Shown here: one piece after another, positions 20,409 through 62,035 of the stretch
How positions within the stretch are numbered: position 1 is the stretch's first letter
How the letters are laid out: each line of letters starts with the position of its first letter
NCBI GenBank assembly: GCA_000697475.1
Contig: JNEU01001098.1
Span: forward strand, 149,897-213,896
Direction of reading: 5' to 3'
DNA from: Lichtheimia corymbifera B2541
Lineage: Eukaryota; Mucoromycota; Mucoromycetes; Mucorales; Lichtheimiaceae
DNA length: 64,000 bases
The notes under the pieces: generated by a model
The model's input: the letters and a program-made list of their open reading frames with translations, nothing else
Database searches by the model: none
Told to the model about the DNA's origin: nothing
Program-made: the position numbers and the translations under genes

Positions 20409-21325
20409 ATGACAGTCAGTAAGTATCTTACACCACCACAATCCTTATCATCCATTACGTATCTCAATTCCTCCTTGCATACAAAAAAAAAAAAGAGAGA
20501 GAATCATTCTCTTCTTTTCTCTCTCCCCCAACATTTAAAAGCATATGATAATTATGTATCGGATATTGATCATTGTATTCCGTATTGATAGAGACTACCG
20601 AGGAACAAAAACGCTTTGTTGAGCGTGTGGCTTCTCTCCCTTATGTTCACGACAGCTTTGTTTATGCCAACGAGACTCGTCTCGGCCGTTTCGCCAATTC
20701 GACTTTGACCAACCTTGCACAAAATCAATCGGTCCAAACGGCTTACAACAACTACTTGCAACGTCATGTTGAGCGTGCCGATGCACTTGGATGCCGCTCG
20801 CTTGATCTTATTGAGGAAAAGCTTCCCGTTTTAACCAATGTGGTTGAATCCCGATCTGGCCACGTGCGCGCTATTGTTACCGACCGCCGTGCCAAGCTTG
20901 CCGAGAGCTTGGATTTGCTTCAAAACACTTTACGCCAATATGCCACTGCTGCTTACAACTTGAAGGATAAGGATCATCAACAAGTGGCTCAACACTGGTT
21001 CCAAGAAGTTGCTTCTCAAATCAACAACCAGTTGGCTTCTGTGGTCACTTATCTCAAAGACCAACCCAACATTCCCGATTGGGTCAAGGGCCGTGTTCTT
21101 TCTCTTGTCGACATTGCTTCCAAGCAATACGAGTTGGTGCGTGAGCAATACAACCGCAAGGATATCTCCAACATTGAAAAGGCTCGTGTTGTTGCCCAAG
21201 GTGTCCAGGAACAAGTATTGCCCGTCCTGCAAACAGTGCACTCCCAACTCTTGTATTACACCTCCGCCAAGGCTGAAACCCTTCGTTCCTACGTCAAGTT
21301 GCCCGCCGTTGTTGCTTCTCACTAG
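20409..21325 (+). CDS. Perilipin-like lipid-droplet protein (CAP20/MPL1 type)
   Basis: Coats lipid droplets and regulates access of lipases to stored lipid. Exon 1 (20409-20418) has only ten bases, ATG ACA GTC A; exon 2 is 20592-21325. Together they give 247 residues starting MTVKTTEEQKRFVERVASLP. The perilipin-type amphipathic helical region covers most of the chain, including DALGCRSLDLIEEKLPVLTN and LKDQPNIPDWVKGR. The size and layout match fungal CAP20/MPL1. Codon use is strongly biased to C-ending codons, as in the ATP synthase gene, which suggests high expression. The 173-base first intron is the longest resolved one in the window and is T-rich; the downstream frame has its own possible ATG at 20573, so the spliced start is inferred. 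Confidence 0.88.
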
Positions 21326-24218: not shown

Positions 24219-25391
24219 ATGAATAGTTATCTCATTCATACATCCCTTCCTCAAGACTTTGTCTACCCAACATCTGAATACATGGTACCAAGCAACAAGT
24301 TTACTGTCGACGACATCGAACCACCCATGACTGGATATATGCCATGCACAACTACTGGATCCATGGATCCACTGAATGTATCAGCAGCACCATTGCCACC
24401 ACAAACGCTTCCACCGAGCAATGCTGATTTCTTTATGGCACCTCCTCTTGAAATGACATGGCCACTCTCTGCAACCGGAACGAGACCCGAGGCACTGCCA
24501 ATGCACCAGGCGTATAGTTATTATCACGAGACATCTCTTGTAAGCACATATGACAGACATGTCCACTAGACTTGCACATCATCTCACGTATACGTCGTAT
24601 CTTTTTTTCTTTTTCGCGATCACAAGAACAATAGCATCCCAAACCTTGGGGCAACACAAGCACCTTATGCTGTAAGCAATAGCATGATGGCTCCTCCTCC
24701 TGCTCCACAAGCACCTCACCCCTCAATGCTACCCACTACACATGTTCACGTTGCTGCTGGTACACCTGCTATTGCCAACTGTGTTGGTGGCAAGTTCCGA
24801 TGCCGATGGCTACATTGCCAAGTACGCACATCCACTATTGAAGAACTTACAATCCATATCCGTGATGATCATGTGGGCAGTGGTAAACCAGCTTATTTTT
24901 GTTATTGGGCTGGTTGTCCTCGTAGTCGTAAACCTTTTACAAAGCGACACAAGATGCACAACCATATGCGTACACACACAGGCGAACGACCTTTCCAATG
25001 CCATATCCAAGGATGTGGCAAACGTTTCTCAAGACCAGATTCGCTGAGTACGCATATCAAGACGCATTCCAATATCCGCCCCTACCACTGTAATGTCCCT
25101 GGCTGTGGTAAATCTTACTTCCATTCCAGGTCATTACGAAAACATACACGCTCTCATCAAGAAGCTGCTGCTGCTGCTGCTGCTGTTACCACCACCACTG
25201 CCAACAAATTGACTTCATCATCTCCTTCACCATCATCCTTATCATCATCTCCTTCAGTATCTACTCCCGCCATTGGATCCTATGTTGTACCATCAAGGTC
25301 TTCGGAGATGCACTTTGCCTTACCAATAACAACATCCAAAGCAGCATCCAATGCCACCACCACAACGCTTCCATTGCATACACTTCATTGA
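24219..25391 (+). CDS. C2H2 zinc-finger transcription factor, GLI/Zic-like finger array
   Basis: Putative nuclear DNA-binding protein of 361 residues; exons 24219-24539 and 24627-25391. The first half is Pro/Ser/Met-rich and probably regulatory. The finger array is at about 153-270: an unusual first finger (CRWLHC...HIRDDH), a second of the wide GLI type (CYWAGCPRSRKPFTKRHKMH), then two classic fingers with the linker THTGERPFQC and CHIQGCGKRFSRPDSL, and CNVPGCGKSYFHSRSLRKH. The spacing with two or four residues between the cysteines resembles the GLI/GLIS/Zic group. An Ala run (GCT repeats) and a Ser/Pro-rich tail end the protein. The target genes are unknown. Confidence 0.88.
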
Positions 25392-34869: not shown

Positions 34870-36699
34870 CTAGAATTCGAATGTCTCATGATGAAAGTCA
34901 AAGCCATGACGTACTGCCTCATTGATCACAGTATTCATAAATGATATTGATCCACACGCGTGTACCCATACGCGTTTAGTATCCTCCTCCTTCTCTATAT
35001 TATTTAAGCATTGCACAATATCAGGGCGACATCCTTGGATAATGCTGCTCCCAGGTATATGTTGCGTAAGTTTCATGCATCGACTCGTGTCCTTTTCGCG
35101 TGTCAGGTGAATAGTCATGTTGACTTGCACAGCCGATAATGATGGATACGTTGCGCATTCCTTAAGAATATCTACAAATGGCTGTACCTCGTCTACATAT
35201 TACAAATAAATGCATCAGAGAATCTGCATCATCGGATCAACTACATGCACTGTACCTGCAGTTGTTACAGACCAAACAAGGTACACCTTGCGTACAAAAG
35301 ACCGCCTTGTTATTTGCTGTACACAATCCTTGAGAATCGTTAGGGCAGGTGTAATACCAATGCCAACGGCAAATAATACCACTGTGTGGTAATCCATATA
35401 GTGCAACCTTGGTCCATAAGGCCCATCCACTCGTAAGTCAAGTGGATTATCGTTCCTTGCAGTTTGCATCAACCGCTGAGTACCATCACCAAGCACTTTG
35501 ATATGGAAGGATCCAAACGATGGCTTTTCCTGATAATTGGATACCGTCATTGGATACCAGTCCGCGTGATGTTCTATCCAGGTACGCACCCTACGGTGCC
35601 AGTGTTTTGGTTCTTTGCCATGATCATTGTTTGGTGTGAGGAACGCGGTAAAGAAATATTGACCAGGGCGAAAACGTTGTAACCCGGGATGTTGGAACTT
35701 TGCATGAACGATCTTTTCATGATATTGCTCCACATGAACAAGATTGCATTGTTGCCACCAGGAATGATATGACCGTAATAGCCTATCCAGGACCCAAAGC
35801 ACGGTAGGAGGATATAAAAAGTAAATACAAGACCACTCATGCCACATGGCACCACCTGTGGCAACGACAATGCCAATAATATGCCAATAATAAAACAACC
35901 GGAAGAAATGACGTCGAATGTAGTAGATCGATGTTGCAAACAGGATGATGTATCCAACCAAGCTTAGGGTCCCTGATGTATACTCTTCATCCTTAAAGAA
36001 TGCGTCATGGAGGCTACCTTTTCCATTTTCCCAATATCCATACCAGCTAAATCATTGTCAGCTTTGGTTAACACAAACAAGCCGGGCGCATTGTTTTGGC
36101 ATTACTACTACCACTTACGCTCGGTAAACCACGTGTAGCACAGTTTCTGCCAAGCCCAACCTTGCACACCAACGATGAAATGGAATCAATTGCTCAAAAC
36201 TGAGCCCACACAATGCTGTAATGATCGAATTGCGTGTGCCTAGCACCATGGTAAAGCTGAAATTGGCCATGCCTACGTACATCATACGTCGATCCAAGAT
36301 ACCAATGATGGGCCACTCGTAATGATCCATCAGTGGATGTAGTTTGAATGGTGAAAACCATATAAAGACAATGTTGGCAATGATGAAAAGACTCATCCCA
36401 ATTAAATGTTTGGTGGATATCATCGTTGCGATATATGGGATCGTCCTTGAATGCTCGAGTGGTCTCATCCAGTGATTGAGAATCTCAAGGGGAGGTCGTA
36501 TACTGGTATCACTATCTCGTCGTTGTCCTTTGATATATCGCCTCCTCCTCCGTTTTTGTTGTTGCCAGCGCAAAAATAACGTCATGCATCGATTGAGTTG
36601 GTATAAAAGAGAATAACTGAGAAAGACAGCCCAGCATACTAGCAAGTACAAGTAGCCAGCCTTGTGAAAATCAGCATTTGGATGAAGCTCCGTGGGCAT
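34870..36699 (-). CDS. FRE-type ferric-chelate reductase
   Basis: Plasma-membrane flavocytochrome that passes electrons from NADPH through FAD and two haems to extracellular ferric or cupric ions. Three exons, 36119-36699, 35256-36046 and 34870-35192, give 564 residues. About six or seven transmembrane helices cover 12-300. Bis-haem histidines stand in H-x13-H pairs: HRWCARLGLAETVLH and HIIGIVVATGGAMWH. The FAD motif, usually HPFT, reads WYPMTVSN here. The NADPH site shows GIGITP and the late HACGS (usually CGP). The N terminus MPTELHPNADFHKAGYLYL lacks a cleavable signal. The neighbouring small membrane protein upstream could be related to metal uptake, but that is only proximity. Confidence 0.9.
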
Positions 36700-37010
36700 G
36701 TCACGTATGTAAAAAAAGTAGTATTGTAAGGTAAAGAGGTTAAAGAAGGGTAAATGATCAATGTGATAATTTTGGTAGAATAGGCCGCAATCCCCCGGAT
36801 ACTAACGCTCCCCGATTTGTTTGCTTATCAGATTTGGTTGACCCTGTGGGTCGATCATGAGATATAATGATCGTTGGCATCATCAACCATGAAGAATCAA
36901 AGTATCATCTCATTTCCCCCACCTCCCTCCCCCAAACGATCAATCGCATTTTCTTGGCGTTTATATTTTATGCTGTATGCTTGTATGTATATGTGTTCCT
37001 AATGTAGCAA
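36700..37010. other. Intergenic region upstream of ferric reductase
   Basis: About 310 bases between two minus-strand genes, holding the reductase promoter. No recognisable GATA-type iron-response site array was identified by eye. Confidence 0.45.
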
Positions 37011-41378: not shown

Positions 41379-44300
41379 TTACTGGGATGCAGGATTGTTG
41401 TTGTTGTTAGTGGTGGAGCCTTGCATAGGAGATGATGCTGATGGTGGTGCTGGAGGAGAGGTTGCTGGTGTTGATGCGGAAGAGGAAGAGGGAGGTAGTT
41501 GTTGCCCATTACCACCTGCAGCAGCAGCAGCTACAGCAGCAGCAGCCGTTGCATGGCTAGCATTGTTATTGACAATATGGAACATGGGGCAGTTTTTGTT
41601 TGTCTTCATATGGCCGAGCTGTCCACAATTGCCACAACGTCGCATAGCACCCTCTCGTTTGCCACGAATCAATCCAAGCACAGGATTCTCAGCCAAAGCT
41701 GCTTGCTTAGCCAATTGTCGTTGTCGTCGTCGTTCAGCGTTGCGTTTGAGCTTAGCCAGACGTTCTTGTAAACGTTTCTTCATTCGCTCGTTCTTCTCAG
41801 CATCATCCGTGGGTCGTAGAGCTTCCACGCTAAAAAGATTAAAGATATACATGTAAGCTTATAATGCCATCAGGGAGTTTTTGAGCATTTACCTTGTTGC
41901 TTCCTCCTCAATCATCTGTCGTTGGCGAAGGTATGATTTAATCACCACAGGATCCCGAACCACTTCCTCTTGCCATGCTTTTTCTCCGTTAGGCTGTCGA
42001 ATCAACCGGCGAATCACAAGATGCTTATTGGGATTATTGTTGACATGGTAGCTTGTTCGTGAGCCGACACTGCCTGTTACTGAGATATCATCATCATCCG
42101 CTGCTTCTGATTGTGCTCGCTCGAAACGTCGGCCATATGGTGCGGGAGATGCAGGCTGTAAAATAAAACTATCATCAGCTTTCCGATATCACTCATTTTA
42201 CTTCCATACACTTACCATTGGGCTTCCCACATGAGACAATGATTCGCCTTCGTTGTCATCATCAGTTTCCTTATCAGATAATTCAGGCTCCTCTTTGGAT
42301 GTAAGTGCATCAAATTGTGCTTTCCAAATGCGTGCAATCTTTGATAACCATGTATCAGTAACAAAATCATAACTCCTCCTTATCATATGCACCATACCTC
42401 TTCTCTGTAAATCTGTTGTTGTTCAGCAACATTGTACCGGTGAGCACTCTTTGGTCGAGCTTCAATTTGGGCTATAGTAGTTTCATATTAGCATCCCTCC
42501 TTCAAGATGCTTATCCATATAATCTTACCAAGTTTTTCTTCAGCTGATTCACCAGCACGTAAGAAAATATCCTTCATGGAAACACGAATAAAGCTGAAAC
42601 CTTCGCCACGACCTGTTGGATCACCAGCACCATAGAGCTTAAGCATGGCTTTGCCCTGACTAGCATTGATAAAGTTGCGAGTGGCAAACCAAGGTGCGAG
42701 TTGCTGCTCCAGTTCGAGTTTTGAATCACCTTCGCCGACTTCTTCATCATCACCCACGTCGCCATAACCCAAATCTTGCAAGTGACGTTCACCCACCAGC
42801 ATGCTCTCGTGCAAGCACACCATTTCAGGGGTCACCATTTTGCGTAAATCTTCTTCACTAGGTGGATCACCGTTACCACGCACTTTCCAATAGCCACCAC
42901 CACCATCCTTGCTTCGTCGATGTAATTCAAGGAACTCTTTGAGTCGCTGGCGAATTTGCAACGTTGTGTACTCGGGGAATCGTGCTGCTAACTTGTTCAT
43001 CTTGAGTCGCTGCAGTGGGTTCTTTTTGATCATGCGATAGGCGATCACTTGCAAACGGTTCTTGATCGTGGTTGTCACCTTACGTGAATGAGGTCCAGGC
43101 ACTTCTTGTACAGGATAGGTTTGACCCACAAGAAATACAGCTGGGATCTCCCGGATGTAGTATCGAGTGTGTCCCTTATAGGTGCTGCGGACAAATAGGA
43201 AATCGGTATGCTTAACGTCGTGGCGGAAAAGTGGTGCACGGATCAAGTTGTTGTATAACACGGGTATCGTTTGACCAGGCTCCACATTGCCGAAATTCAT
43301 AAAGGGAGATGTATCACCAATGTCAAGCACAAAAGGTTCGCCAATATCAGACTAACATTCAACAATGAGCATGTGGACATTGTTATATCATGATGATGAA
43401 CTTACAGTTGGAACATAGTCATCCTTTGGATCGTTCTTGCGATAATAATTGATGATCAGCGTGCCCATGCCTGCATTGGATATGATGGGAGGATGTTGTT
43501 CCTAAAGACCAAGCTGTGTCAATATACATGGATGGCTCATCTCGTTTTCCATCTACTTACTGAGAATTCAAGCAACACAAATGGAGCAGTATCCTTGAGA
43601 GATAAATCCTTGGTGGTTCGCATGGCATCCACGTATCCTCTTTTCTTATCCTTCTTTTTCTTTTTGCAGACTTTGACTCGAGAGAAGGTGATATCTGAAT
43701 TGAGAGGCACTGGGAATAAGGGTCGATGGAAGGAACGAAGCTCTGGTTTTGAAAGTCGAATCTTATACTATAGAGACAACGTTAGTTACTCATTGTCATA
43801 CCATCCATGCAACAAGCATTTTACTAACCAGAACAGGGTGTAATTTGAGAGCCGGCAATGCATGCTGCACCACGAGTTCACCGAGTGTTTGTCGTACACG
43901 TACAAGACGACCCGTGTAATGGGATTCGTAGAATTTGTCATTGGACAAGTTGAAACGGCTGATGGGTAGCTTATTTTGAGGTTCATCAGTGCTGACAATC
44001 ATAGGAATCTTGGGCAAAGGCTTTGGTAACGGCTTTCTTCCCTTCTTGACTTGTTTGGCTTCGACGACACGTGCCTTTTCAGTCTCCACCTTCTCCATGT
44101 CAAACAGCATGTTGGGGTCATTCAAATCAAGGCTGATCTTCATATAAGCTGGATTCGGCTTGGGTCGGTCCCATATAATGGCATCGAGCCATTCACCATC
44201 CGATAATTGCTGATTGATATGCTTGGATACAACCGACTACGATGTTGATTAACCTTTGCCCATCAAGATTAGAGAGACATCCATTACTCACCTCAGACGA

Positions 44301-55215: not shown

Positions 55216-58200
55216 ATGTCAGACTTTTTTGATAAAATTGGAAGGCGTTGGTCAAAAACTCCAAGTACCGGTTCTTCTTCGCGTCCTACCGACGATCGTT
55301 CAACATCGCCCACTTTCTCATCAGGTATTTCGACTCTCTGAAACCAGAAACTATTTTCGTGTATCAACTGAAACCTGGCTTTGGCATCAAGGACGGCAAT
55401 CGATCGATAGTCGAAGACACATGGATGGTCGACAGTCAATGGACTATGGCAGCTCGCCCTTTGCGGCCATGCCACCTCCTGAACAGATTAACGACATGTT
55501 TGAGCAAATGCTGGCAAGTGTCCCTTGCTCCTCTTCTTGTTTATTCACAAAGGCCTAACATGGAACATGCAATAATAGAGTCGACGTGGTATTCGAGACG
55601 AGCAACAATACAAGGCCATGTTGGAATGGGACGTTGAGAAAAAATGGCTACTTATCAGCCAGGATCCAAAGGCAGAGCAGCTTGCATCAGGTCGAAAAAC
55701 AGCACTTGACGATAAAGATCCCGATGCACCACCGCCGCTTATCAATGTTCTCGCCGAGAAAGCAGGGGAAATGTGGTCTGCAACTTGGGAACACGGCAGC
55801 CGACGTCTTGAAAAACATCGCATGTCAGCACATCCAGGTCGACTTGGTCCACCAACCAATATCAGCCCTTCAAGTAGTACTGGCCTTAGCACGAGTGGTG
55901 TCCCTATTTCTCAACCCGGTCCCGGTGCATCCACTTTTTCAGACCTTGATCGTTATTCACCCGAGTTTTTCATTCGCAAGTTCATGGAAGCTGATTTACG
56001 TGCTGTCACACCTGCGTTGGTGGATCATCTCACGGTAAACTTAAGAACTCGGCCCATTGAGTAAGTGTGCTGCCAAGGAAAAAGTTGGATGGGTACTTAC
56101 ATACTTCAATAGTTGGGTCATCAAGTTCATTGATCTCAAAGGTGTCTATGTCTTATGCAATGGCCTTACCTACTTGAATCACAAAACAGAAAGGTATGCT
56201 CTATTTAGACCAATCCACCATCTTGTTCATTCACTAATTTTCACATGCTTTAGAAATGAAAAGACTCTGGAGCTTGAAATTGAGGTTGTCAAATGCATCA
56301 AAGTGCTTATAAACACACGCGTAAGTATTTGGATGATGGGATGGATACAAGAGAGAATGAGGTCTAATCATCTTTATTAGTGGGGTGTCCGTGAAGTGAT
56401 TGCGAATCCAAGCTACATCGAATCCATCGTTTATTCCTTGGTGTGTCCTCATTGGCAGACACGAAAGTTCGTGTGCGACATGCTTTCCTTCATATGCTTG
56501 TGCGAGAAGCCCGTTGGTCATGGTCACGTTTTAAATGGATTTGATTCACTAAGAAGTCATCGTGGTGATCTGGGACCTTTCAATGCATGGATCAAGGATT
56601 TGGAGAATACAGTGGATGGTCGAGGAAGGATGGGATCACTTGTTGGGGCTAGTGATGACTTGAAAAGTCTTGGCGTTTACAATGCACCCGATAGCCATTT
56701 GATGGAATATGCGGTAAGTTCTTAAACACTTGGATCATGCTGTGGGGAGAGAGAGGAAAGGAAGGTCGCTCATATATAACTTTTGGTAGTTATCCAACAT
56801 GATGCTGATCAATATCATTGTCAACAAAGTACCAAACGAGGTGCATGAACGGATCCACCTTCGAAATCAGTTAAATGCTGCTGGCATGCTTCGTGTTCTG
56901 CCAAAGCTTGAAAGGCTCGACTATCACTATCTCAACAAGCAAATCGACATGTATAGAGCAGCTGCAGAGAATGATCAAGAGGATGCTTTTGGAGACGAAT
57001 TATCGGTTTATTCAGATATATCACAACCCAACGAGCTTTTCGACCTGGTAATGGATAGCATTGCTGAAGCACCAAGAGCACAAGATCATTTGATCTCTAC
57101 ACTACGAAGCATGTTAATCATCAAAGGGGATTCTGAAAACAAGTGAGTGTAAAGTAATGGATAGTGATAGCTTGAATATTAACCTCTCTCTTTATTAGGA
57201 CCCATTATCATCGCATGATCAGCGAATTGGTGCACCAGGTTGTTATGGATCGACGTGGCAGTGTATCAGCGGCAGATTTCAGCTCTACATTTGGTGTCTC
57301 GGTTGGCAATCTCATTGAAAAGTTCAGCGAACTCGATCGCTTGCATGAAATGGAGGCCGAAGCATCCGAGGTTCAGGAACGAGCTATTCGACTTGCTGCA
57401 GAAAACAAGGAATTGAAGTTGGAATTGGAGCACTGGCGTTCACAAGCAGGTGGCCAAGCTTCGGTACCACCCCAAGAATCCTCCAGCGTATCACGACGTA
57501 AGTTTACATGGGATGCGATAAGAAAAGGTAGCTCAACGTTAGCATTAAAGGATCCCGGATGAATATGAAAATGGAATTGGCGTCCTTGCGAGCACTACTC
57601 AAGACCTCCAGAAATACCATTACGATGCTTCAAGAGAAACTCAAACAATATGAGGATGGATCCGATGATCAACCTGTCAGTAACGGCTTGGTGTTAGGAA
57701 ATGACTGGAAGATGTCTGGAAAACACAAGTTGGTATGTACTCTTTGTATTTAACGTGGATCCTCTTATTGACTTTTTGTGTTATAGCCTATGCCCACTAC
57801 AGCAGATAACAATCAAGCCAACATAGGTCCTGGTGGATTTATTATTCCTGGCACAGTTCCACCTGCTACGTCAACATCGGAATCAGATTCTCCAAAACCA
57901 TCATCAGCACAAAACACACAAACGGATGAGATGACATCAACAGAGGGTAAGATCCATCTAATCTTGCTATAGTCAACGACTAAACATTGTCTTGGATATA
58001 TTAGATGTAACACCAGAACCATCAACAACCGAACCAAGTAAGTGAAATCAGACGTTACCAATGTAGGCTTAGATCCTGATCACCTCTGTATATAGGCACG
58101 CCCAAACCATCTTCAGACATACCTCCACCGCCACCACCGCCACCACCGCCATCTGGTATGTATTATTTTTCTTCATATGGCTATACAGAGTGGTATCTCA

Positions 58201-60910
58201 TATTCATAAATCTGCAGGTATTGCTTCTACGCCTTCTTCAGATTCATCAGCTATACCTCCACCCCCACCTCCTCCTCCGGTTTCAGGTAAATCTTTGCAT
58301 GTAAGTTATATTGGATCATGGGATTAAACTTGCTTAAATCCAGGTTCTGTACCTCCACCTCCACCGCCACCGCCACCGCCGCCACCACCACCACCACCAG
58401 GTGCAGGTAATGATTTGTACGCATTGATGTCAAGATTAGATTTAACGCATTTGATGTTGTAGGTGGCATTCCTCCACCTCCTCCACCTCCTCCACCGCCA
58501 GGTACGACTTTTTACATCACTGCCGACTCCATTTCACTCAACTTATATTTATATTATAGGTGGTGCTATTCCTCCACCTCCACCGCCACCACCGCCACCA
58601 GGTATGGTTTTGCGTATTACTGCCAACTTTGTTCATTTGATCTAATATTATATTATAGGTGGTGCTCCTCCCCCTCCACCACCACCACCGCCGCCGCCAG
58701 GAGGTGCAGGTAAGGTGTTCAGTATGATACCTACTCAGTAATACTAACATTTAACATAGGTGGTATTCCTCCTCCCCCTCCTCCACCACCAGGTAAGTTG
58801 TTGATCATCCTGTGTATTATACAAAAAGCGACTAACATCCATTTGAAGGAGGTCCAGGTGCTCCACCACCGCCACCACCACCACCAGGTAATTGAATAGA
58901 GCAACTTTTTCATTGGATGTGTTACACTCACACTAGATTTTTAAATAGGTGCCAAAGGACCCAATGCACCTAATGCACCCCTTGCTGGACCTCTTCGTAA
59001 GGAGTTGCGCCATTATCCCAATACCAAACTCAAGAACTTGCAGTGGCAAAAACTGGATGCCCGTGGTGTGGACAAGACGATTTGGGTCCTTGAGACTGTG
59101 GATGAAAATGGCTTGGAAGATGCGCTTGATGAAGCGGGTGTCTTTTCCAAACTTGAAGATCTTTTCCCTGCCAAGGTCAATTTGTTCTTTGAAAGGAAAC
59201 TCAAGGCCAAGATTGAAGAGCGGAAGGATGCAGTGAAATTCTTGAGTAAAGAAAAGAGCAGAAATATCAGTAAGTGGTGCTATGAAGGATACACACAGGA
59301 CATGGCACTAACTCAAATGATTGATGATTACACACAGATTTGGCCATTTTGCCCAAGATTAAGAATATGACCTTCAAGGAAGCTCGACGTCAATTATTGC
59401 AATTGGACGAACAGCTTTGCACAGAGACATTCATCAGCAACTTGATCGCTTACTTGCCGAGCAAAGACGATGATACGCGTACCATGGAGAAATACATGAA
59501 GGAATCGGACGAGAAACGAGCTGAATTGGATTATCCCGAGCAGTTCACTGTAGAGGTATATAGGGCATACAACGATGAATTCGATCGGGTTATTGACATG
59601 ATGGATGGTAGATGGCATCAATCTACAGATACGAACCACGTCTCCGATTCATGCTTTTACGCATTCAATTCTGGGAAAGATATGAACAGCTGCACAAGGT
59701 ACACAAAGCTCACAATGGGTGGTATAAGCGAGTGTGTATGTTCATATATCAATATTCATTGTAGAATATGTCGTTGGTATTGGATGTTTCTGAATCCCTG
59801 CGCAATTCTGAAAGCTTTAGAGAATTGCTAAGTGTAAGTGGTATAGGGCTTTACGGATTTGCTGTATATAGCTGACATGGTTTTTAGTTGATCCTTCTTG
59901 TTGGCAATTTTATGAACGCACAAAGTCTTCAAGGTGGTGCCTTTGGTATGCGTATTTCTAGTATCAACAAACTTGCAGACACGAAGGCATCCAATGTTTC
60001 CTCGCTTACTTTATTGCACGTATTGGCTGGTGTTACACGGCGACAATTCCCACACCTTCTTGAATTTTTGCATGATCTCAAGGATACGGGACAAGCTGCT
60101 CGCAGTATGTTGAAATTATCACGAATTGGAAAAAAGGAGGTCTAGTTCTAACCTTTTGAATGGTAGTTATGGTGAGCATCAACGACTTGGTGCAGCAATA
60201 CACTGAAATGCGACAAGGTTTGAAGGAGTTGACGCTTGAGCTTGGCACACAGTGGCAGCCTGAGGACACGACGCTTGAAGAAGGTGATTGCTTCCGTGAT
60301 GTCATGACTGAATTCCGGGATGAAGCATCCAACAAATTCGAGGACTTGCAAACGGTGTACATCAACATGGATGCCAAGTGGAAGGATGTCATGGTGTATT
60401 ATGGCGAGAACCCCAAGGTTATGCGACCTGACGACTTTTTCGGTGTATTTGCCCGATTTGTCAGTAGCTGGAAGGATGCTGCGATCGCTGAAGAGAAACA
60501 CACTCTCAAGCTAGAGCGAGAAGAAAAACGACGAAAGGAAGAGGAACTACGTAAGCAACGTCTTGAAGCCAAACGCCAAAAGCTTGCAGAGAAGGAAGCT
60601 GCTGAAAAGGAACGACGCACTGAGGATGTTGATTTGAGCGAAGGTAACTTGGACATTGAAAATAGGTTACACGATCCATGCAATTTACTGATTTTCTTTT
60701 GCGTTCACCCCTTTTGTAGAAGGAACAGGTACTGAGGACGATCGCAAGATGATGGATAATCTTTTGGCCAAGTTGCGATCGGCTGATGCCGAACCCACTG
60801 TACCACGAGCCCGACGCCGTCGCCAGCGAACCGAGGAACAAGAACAAGACGTGCGAGATGATGATGTACAACTTGCTGAGAATCTCCTCAAGAGTCTTCA
60901 ATCAGACTAG
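55216..60910 (+). CDS. Diaphanous-related formin (Bni1/SepA type) with multi-exon FH1
   Basis: Actin nucleator of hyphal tips and septa, activated by Rho GTPases. Twenty-six exons: 55216-55324, 55392-55513, 55579-56060, 56113-56193, 56254-56320, 56381-56713, 56790-57142, 57199-57497, 57551-57732, 57787-57946, 58005-58037, 58096-58155, 58218-58286, 58344-58406, 58463-58501, 58560-58601, 58659-58709, 58760-58792, 58849-58887, 58949-59269, 59338-59555, 59612-59698, 59765-59833, 59888-60104, 60167-60643 and 60720-60910. They give 1398 residues. GBD/FH3 spans about 70-560 (PEFFIRKFMEADLRAV, WVIKFIDLKGVYVLCNGL), then a coiled coil (about 570-670). FH1 (about 745-875) is all polyproline. FH2 (about 885-1290) starts LRHYPNTKLKNLQWQKLD and holds LLVGNFMNAQSLQGGAFGMR. 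A basic DAD-like end follows (LAKLRSAD, RARRRRQR). Intron 2 uses a GC donor. Confidence 0.93.
58096..58887 (+). repeat. FH1 array of eight symmetric polyproline exons
   Basis: Inside the formin gene, exons of 60, 69, 63, 39, 42, 51, 33 and 39 bases follow each other, separated by introns of 50-62 bases. Every intron lies in phase 1, so all exons are multiples of three and start with the G/GT or G/GA split glycine codon. Each encodes one block of 8-16 prolines, usually led by Gly-Ala, Gly-Ile or Gly-Gly-Ile. Exon plus intron together form a repeat of about 95-125 bases. Confidence 0.9.
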
Positions 60911-61053: not shown

Positions 61054-62035
61054 CTACCAAGATGTATAGCCACCGTCGACCACAATGTCTGTGCCAGTCA
61101 TGTAAGCAGCAGCATCGGAAGCAAGGAATACCACAGCACCTTTAAGCTCATGTGGTTTGCCCATTCGACCAAGCGGTGTCTCAGCTTCCCATGTTTGCTT
61201 TGTCTTGGTGCCTTGTTCGCCCATTTGACGGATGTTTTGTGCATTCATGGCTGTATCAAAGTAACCAGGAGAAATGGATGTAACACGAATGCCATGTGGA
61301 GCCCACTCACATGCAAGCGATTTTGTCAATTGATGCACAGCCTTTGTTTTCATAAAGACACAACAATCAGATCCTTTGTCTTTTTTTCCTTTGTGACAGC
61401 ACTTACAGCTTTGCTAGCATTATAGGGTATATGAGTTTGCGGTCGAGTGGCAACGTGAGCACAAATGGATGCAATTGCAATGATTGAACCTTGAATACGT
61501 TTATGGATCATGTGCCTGGTATGTAGTGTGTAAGCAAAAGACCATCCAATTCGATCACCAACATCATACATACTTTGCCGCTTGCTGCATACAATTAAAC
61601 GTGCCAGCCACATTAACATCCAAGATCTTGCGAACGCCCTGAGCTGGATAGTCGAGCGATGGGCATACATGGTTTATGCCGGCTGCTGTCACAAGAATAT
61701 CGATTCGGCCATGATGCTCCTCGATTTGATCAAAGACTCTGGCAACCTCTTCTTTGTTTGTCACATCACATCCCCAGCTGCTTCTCTTGACTTTGCATTC
61801 CGTTTCAATCTTTGAAACAGCCTTTGCGCCGTTTTCAGCTTGTAAGTCTATACATACAATGTCGGCACCTGCTTCAGCAAGAGCAAGCATCATCTCGTAG
61901 CCTAATCCCTGTGCCCCTCCCGTTACTATTACTTGCATTTTAGCTTTTGAATTGCATGCATTATATATACAGCTTACCAACAGCGACTTTTCCTTGAAGC
62001 GAAAGTTGAGAAAATACATGGGCGGATGCAGTCAT
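61054..62035 (-). CDS. Short-chain dehydrogenase/reductase (SDR)
   Basis: Classical NAD(P)-dependent SDR of 268 residues, from exons 61978-62035, 61574-61925, 61407-61515 and 61054-61341. The Rossmann motif VTGGAQGLG (about 20-28) is joined across intron 1. DIVCIDLQ ends with an acidic residue at the cofactor position, favouring NAD over NADP. DILVTAAGINH holds the structural NAG-like segment. The catalytic serine lies in IIAIASICAHV and the Tyr-x3-Lys in YNASKA. VTSISPGYFDTAM and MTGTDIVVDGGYTSW close the fold. Sugar-alcohol (mannitol or sorbose) or polyol dehydrogenases share this layout, but the substrate cannot be fixed. The stop lies 143 bases from the formin stop, in convergent orientation. 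Confidence 0.92.

Follow-up and report, generated by a model that had tools for sequence, protein, structure and literature searches.

The window, a stretch of 64,000 nucleotides (nt) from Lichtheimia corymbifera B2541 (contig JNEU01001098.1, positions 149,897 to 213,896), contains a predicted formin gene in which the FH1 region is spread over eight consecutive mini-exons. Each of these codes for one polyproline block and is bounded by phase-1 introns on both sides. From this arrangement and its comparison with paralogs and with other Mucorales, we conclude that FH1 of this formin is probably an old modular array, with one symmetric mini-exon per block, that is constitutively spliced and shared within its subfamily.

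The reading frame runs uninterrupted through all exons of our model of the formin gene, which was built from the DNA (Table 1). Pfam found Drf_GBD (PF06371, E=9.2e-40), Drf_FH3 (PF06367, E=2.8e-34) and FH2 (PF02181, E=3.4e-75, residues 895-1279) in the predicted protein, and eight proline runs of 8-16 residues lie directly N-terminal of FH2, as in an FH1 region with several tracts. Because of these three domains we assign the predicted product to the diaphanous-related formins, and the formin FH1 identity proposed by a first-pass annotation of this DNA stands. The order of GBD, FH3, polyproline FH1 and FH2 is like that of the fungal diaphanous-related formins SepA, Bni1 and Cdc12. Nineteen distinct solved sequences match the FH2 domain, with Diaphanous 1 as the best match and Cdc12 and Bni1 lower. 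The DAD family was absent among the three Pfam matches; the tail holds MMDNLLAKLR followed by a basic stretch, which we take to be DAD-like. FH1 is expected to be disordered. Intron 2 of the gene (55514-55578) is apparently GC-AG (GCAAGT...TAG).

The first-pass annotation had proposed eight exons of 33-69 nt, each coding for a single block of 8-16 prolines, as well as a run of phase-1 introns from 57947 to 59337, and we recovered both in the 26-exon model. Exons 12-19 hold a single proline run each, and introns 10-20, which are 50-68 nt long, are GT-AG in 11 of 11 cases and phase 1 in 11 of 11, so that exons 11-20 are all symmetric. Since phase 1 occurs in 4 of the 14 remaining introns of the gene, this run is not random, with the caveat that the phases of introns 10-20 are not independent, since the Pro-Gly unit recurs together with its CAG|GT junction. 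Retention of the segments between the exons, which the same annotation had set against its own proposal, is excluded by the sequence: an in-frame stop interrupts seven of the 11 introns, and the length of the remaining four (introns 12, 15, 18 and 20) is not a multiple of three, so these segments cannot be coding. Exons 12-19 of the predicted model thus have the layout of a modular repeat-exon region, with consecutive symmetric exons of one unit each. Two of these exons have ambiguous ends. The acceptor of exon 19 lies at 58849 (after AAG) or at 58858 (after CAG), 9 nt apart and both in frame. In exon 14, a weak in-frame candidate for a second donor, GTGCAG at 58401, lies 6 nt from the donor at 58407.

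Table 1. Predicted exons and introns of the FH1 region and the formin gene that contains them (positions in the window).
Feature	Position	Strand	Description
Formin gene	55216..60910	+	diaphanous-type GBD-FH3-FH1-FH2; 26 predicted exons, 1,398 residues + stop
Exon 11	58005..58037	+	33 nt, phase 1-1, without polyproline (VTPEPSTTEP)
Exon 12	58096..58155	+	60 nt, phase 1-1, 10 Pro
Exon 13	58218..58286	+	69 nt, phase 1-1, 8 Pro
Exon 14	58344..58406	+	63 nt, phase 1-1, 16 Pro; weak in-frame alternative donor candidate 58401
Exon 15	58463..58501	+	39 nt, phase 1-1, 10 Pro; G|GTANG donor motif
Intron 15	58502..58559	+	58 nt; like intron 16
Exon 16	58560..58601	+	42 nt, phase 1-1, 10 Pro; G|GTANG donor motif
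Intron 16	58602..58658	+	57 nt; like intron 15; in-frame stop when retained
Exon 17	58659..58709	+	51 nt, phase 1-1, 11 Pro
Exon 18	58760..58792	+	33 nt, phase 1-1, 8 Pro; G|GTANG donor motif
Exon 19	58849..58887	+	39 nt (30 nt if start 58858), phase 1-1, 8 Pro; FH2-nearest block
Exon 20	58949..59269	+	321 nt, phase 1-1, FH2 start

According to passages of PMC11773026 and PMC12263155, profilin binds to the polyproline tracts of FH1, which assist in delivering profilin-actin to the FH2-held barbed end. In the diaphanous-related formin of this mucoralean mould, the modules of FH1 would form an old array with introns at their borders, each module being a phase-1 symmetric mini-exon with one polyproline block (the expected profilin binder) and usually a Gly-rich linker. 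The introns of FH1 are most likely spliced constitutively, which would normally include all eight blocks, and FH1 would hand profilin-actin to the FH2 ring as in other formins of the family. The layout was probably there early in this formin subfamily: the sequence shows it in two paralogs, and read-through suggests it for other Mucorales. At least one module probably came from duplication of an exon together with its intron, and frame symmetry would permit the gain or loss of whole modules in evolution.

FH2 matches were found in seven genes of the genome, on contigs C300, C324, C201, C317, C400, C414 and C370, and these fall into several distinct groups. We read the FH1 region in the six paralogs of the window gene, counting runs of at least 6 prolines, of which the five unsplit ones were read without full exon models. 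In these five, the runs lie in a single open stretch: eight in C317, four in C324, three in C201 and one each in C300 and C400. Since C317 keeps eight blocks (68 prolines) unsplit, splitting of FH1 is not needed for function. The sixth paralog, C414, has consecutive exons of 51, 66, 63, 48 and 102 nt, all of phase 1-1; the last three are polyproline exons. While C414 is like the window gene in its consecutive phase-1 symmetric FH1 exons, it has just three polyproline exons, the 102-nt one of which holds two blocks, and two of the three end in C|GT. The first-pass annotation knew of no fungal formin with such a layout; C414, which is split likewise, and the read-through signatures described below for Pilobolus, Rhizopus, P0081 and P0083 indicate that the window gene is not alone.

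The tree of FH2 domains has 37 rows and places the window gene together with C414 in a clade of 15 rows (support 100/100). C300, C324, C201 and C317 are placed outside this clade, and C400 forms a long branch whose place is unsure. The rows of P0013 and P0035 are incomplete, C400 was entered without its first piece (two stops), C414 is 48% filled, and P0012, P0079, P0081 and P0083 were left out. C317 and a protein of Lichtheimia ramosa that carries the name 'Cytokinesis protein sepA' form a group (100/100; 77% identity, 518 residues). FH1 of this paralog is a single open stretch, where that of the window gene is spread over eight phase-1 mini-exons. As C414 is split within the clade of the window gene and the eight-block C317 is unsplit outside it, splitting in this genome follows subfamily and not block number.

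Other species were compared as proteins, using 145 homologues from three protein searches (best of 8,000 scored candidates each), and their introns were inferred from read-through. In four of the 145, namely P0006 (Pilobolus), P0079 (Rhizopus delemar), P0081 and P0083, polyproline is followed by R-K and then by non-FH1 residues or the end of the model. We infer that this R-K is the read-through of a phase-1 donor C|GTAAG (CGT-AAG). In P0083 the pattern occurs twice, the two copies being separated by 'APGGPGV' and nine prolines, as would suit a phase-1 mini-exon with a single block. The pattern matched 26 times; the 4 matches with R-K were kept, and the 22 with G-K or G-M were set aside by eye as probable linkers, although G-M among these could also be read-through of GGT-ATG. 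We did not count an odd insert between blocks in P0002 (Apophysomyces), which is too short for a normal intron, or an out-of-frame upstream stretch in P0072, which is maybe an intron.

Blocks of at least 5 prolines were counted in gene models, in which mini-exons may be missed. The counts are 8 for the window gene, Halteromyces and Gongronella, 6 for Apophysomyces, 7 for Pilobolus, 9 for Sporodiniella, which is not in the FH2 tree, and 1 for Spinellus. Block number in related models ranges from 6 to 9, with Spinellus as the single outlier and three genera at 8, in line with the first-pass idea that evolution could change it. The FH2-proximal linkers of the three eight-block genera are GGPGA, GGPGV and GGPGA. 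The Rhizopus model P0079, which ends in FH1, has 4 blocks; P0056 (Rhizopus delemar), whose FH1 lies before residue 400 and has several proline runs, was left out of the count. The related models P0057 and P0060 start inside FH2 and, like P0079, are perhaps broken by mini-exons.

Within the window gene, introns 15 and 16 are identical in 35 of 52 aligned core columns, a score that 3 of 20,000 mononucleotide shuffles reach, and they rank first among the 300 pairs of its 25 introns (z 4.06, score 13.5). Furthermore, seven of the eight blocks open with CCT as their proline codon, a number that 5 of 100,000 shuffles of the codons within blocks attain, compared with one of eight in the unsplit C317. 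The likeness of introns 15 and 16 and the common CCT start suggest shared descent of the modules, and the array has perhaps grown in part by exon-plus-intron duplication. We also asked whether linkers are more alike within than between species, using 36 linkers of at most 12 residues from six species; P0056, P0079 and P0004 were left out, and longer linkers, among them unusual ones in P0002 and P0006, were dropped. No such likeness was found in these six species, with 1,026 of 5,000 label shuffles reaching the difference, which disfavours a recent species-specific spread of modules. We read this as an array that is old and positionally conserved rather than fast-changing. The earlier proposal of exon duplication or shuffling has moderate support from the introns and the CCT codons, but the linker comparison was negative. 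An introner-like origin was rejected: in a genome search that skips simple repeats, all 3 matches of the segment running from the last bases of exon 15 to the first of exon 17 lie in the window gene.

The alternative that survives best is parallel intron insertion, in which introns would have entered repeatedly at the CAG|GT proto-splice site of the Pro-Gly repeat without any exon duplication. After splicing, six of the eight junctions downstream of exons 12-19 (those of exons 13-17 and 19) read AG|GT, and beyond the pair 15/16 the introns are hardly related, with a mean z of 0.51 for the 55 pairs among introns 10-20 and 0.17 for the 245 other pairs. However, repeated insertion is at odds with the resemblance of introns 15 and 16 and with the common CCT start, and five paralogs with similar repeats, one of them with eight blocks, are without such introns. 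We consider this origin unlikely, though a serious contender.

Several observations weigh against an old, shared and constitutively spliced array that grew in part by duplication. When the last 16 nt, an AT-rich tail, are removed from introns 15 and 16, 121 of 20,000 shuffles reach their score, and an unexpected pair, introns 2 and 18, has a nearly equal z (3.98 vs 4.06) at a lower score (7.5 vs 13.5). The CCT start might partly come from splice-site context. Introns of other species are deduced from protein read-through, and constitutive splicing of FH1 is presumed. In the FH2 tree, the narrower group that holds the window gene has a modest support of 83/95, and three of the four read-through rows (P0079, P0081 and P0083) are not placed; for these two reasons our confidence in a modular array shared by the subfamily is slightly lowered. 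Lastly, G|GT dominates at the junctions of the window gene, while two C414 polyproline exons and the four read-throughs have C|GT, so identical intron positions across the subfamily are unproven.

Donors after polyproline, counted by pattern along with reversed-pattern controls, are not a general habit of this genome. Four proline codons and CCA followed by a phase-1 G|GTANG gave three genome matches, all in the window gene, and 0 controls. A phase-1 C|GTANG after polyproline gave one match, in C414, with three controls, and a phase-0 donor gave one match, on C421, with two; at that locus the part read is the first 1,200 of 3,020 bases, which does not include the match. Genome-wide, no match was found for a phase-2 donor (five controls) or for Gly and one further codon between the prolines and the donor (0 controls). 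The plain eight-proline pattern has 574 overlapping matches in the genome, some of which, among those listed, are homopolymer C (C106, C126), so it provides no clean denominator.

Splicing of FH1 in this formin is predicted from DNA, and the nearest comparison comes from FH2. P0055, a protein of 332 residues that is 95% identical to the window protein, is continuous across the sites of introns 22-25. Introns 22-24 of the window gene have stops in them, and reading through intron 25 would change the frame, so P0055 resembles a spliced transcript from a close relative. Its source is a 1,145-base contig tagged lgn, presumably an assembly of public reads. An FH1-spanning transcript of a close relative was not found in the three protein searches, with 8,000 candidates scored in each.

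The number and position of FH1 blocks set elongation speed, and the first-pass annotation had suggested that alternative splicing tunes it: skipping or inclusion of FH1 mini-exons would set how many profilin sites there are and how far they lie from FH2, and hence the speed of filament elongation. All eight exons are frame-neutral, and profilin binding and delivery of profilin-actin by FH1 tracts, as cited above, fit this idea. Introns of 50-68 nt, however, fit intron definition, under which skipping of exons is rare, and the donors of introns 10-20 match AAGT at +3..+6 about as well as those of the remaining 14 introns do, with means of 3.0 and 3.07 of 4, respectively. No isoform was seen among the 145 homologues, which is weak evidence of absence, as they include few members of this subfamily and no close-relative transcript across FH1. 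Moreover, in L. corymbifera just 2.2% of genes have verified alternative splicing, and more than 75% of the events are alternative donors or acceptors, according to passages of PMC4133162, whose main text does not use the term 'formin'. The tuning proposal is therefore unsupported and improbable in our view, and regulated skipping of FH1 exons is not expected. If splicing varies at all, the sites 58401/58407 and 58849/58858 seem better candidates than exon skipping. A fully regulated FH1, in which mini-exon choice or these alternative sites would vary the number of profilin sites and supply growth stages with formins of different speed from one gene, appears highly improbable. Constitutive inclusion of the whole modular array remains our preferred interpretation.

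We give hardly any credence to the further idea that splitting guards polyproline DNA against replication slippage, as the first-pass annotation suggested, or against RNA/DNA structure. Although Tandem Repeats Finder reports polyproline arrays at 58125-58151, 58351-58399 and 58470-58496, FH1 of C317 is unsplit with its eight blocks, and pure CCA runs there reach at most 5 codons vs 6 in the window gene.

Arrays of symmetric exons that code for repeat units are found in elastin and fibrillar collagen, proteins unrelated to formin. The exon-per-block FH1 predicted here is also comparable in layout to titin PEVK, where many short repetitive exons code for a Pro-rich region and are hard for gene finders, as stated in passages of PMC6469411. 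Titin is an unrelated animal protein and its PEVK region has many alternatively spliced isoforms, whereas none are known here. Each functional unit of an actin-elongation domain would have its own frame-neutral exon beside unsplit paralogs in one genome, which offers a clean setting for asking if the evolution of FH1 block number depends on exon structure. Mini-exons appear to break gene prediction, and the subfamily may be under-annotated. Should isoforms be found, titin-like tuning of length would have a counterpart in fungi. No paper on mucoralean formin gene structure was found among the literature matches listed, which cover few subscription journals.

Elsewhere in the window, a short-chain dehydrogenase (61564-62031, minus strand; PF00106, E=2.5e-29) lies just downstream of the formin gene in convergent orientation. 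A perilipin-like match at 20570-21325 (plus strand) is weak, its 23.9 bits falling short of the curated cut-off of 33. A DUF3591 domain (42488-43351, minus strand; E=4.3e-115) marks what is presumably a TAF1-like protein. Further features are ferric-reductase-like exons (35215-36801, minus strand; PF01794 and PF08030) and a C2H2 zinc-finger protein (24570-25391, plus strand; PF00096, E=2.6e-12).

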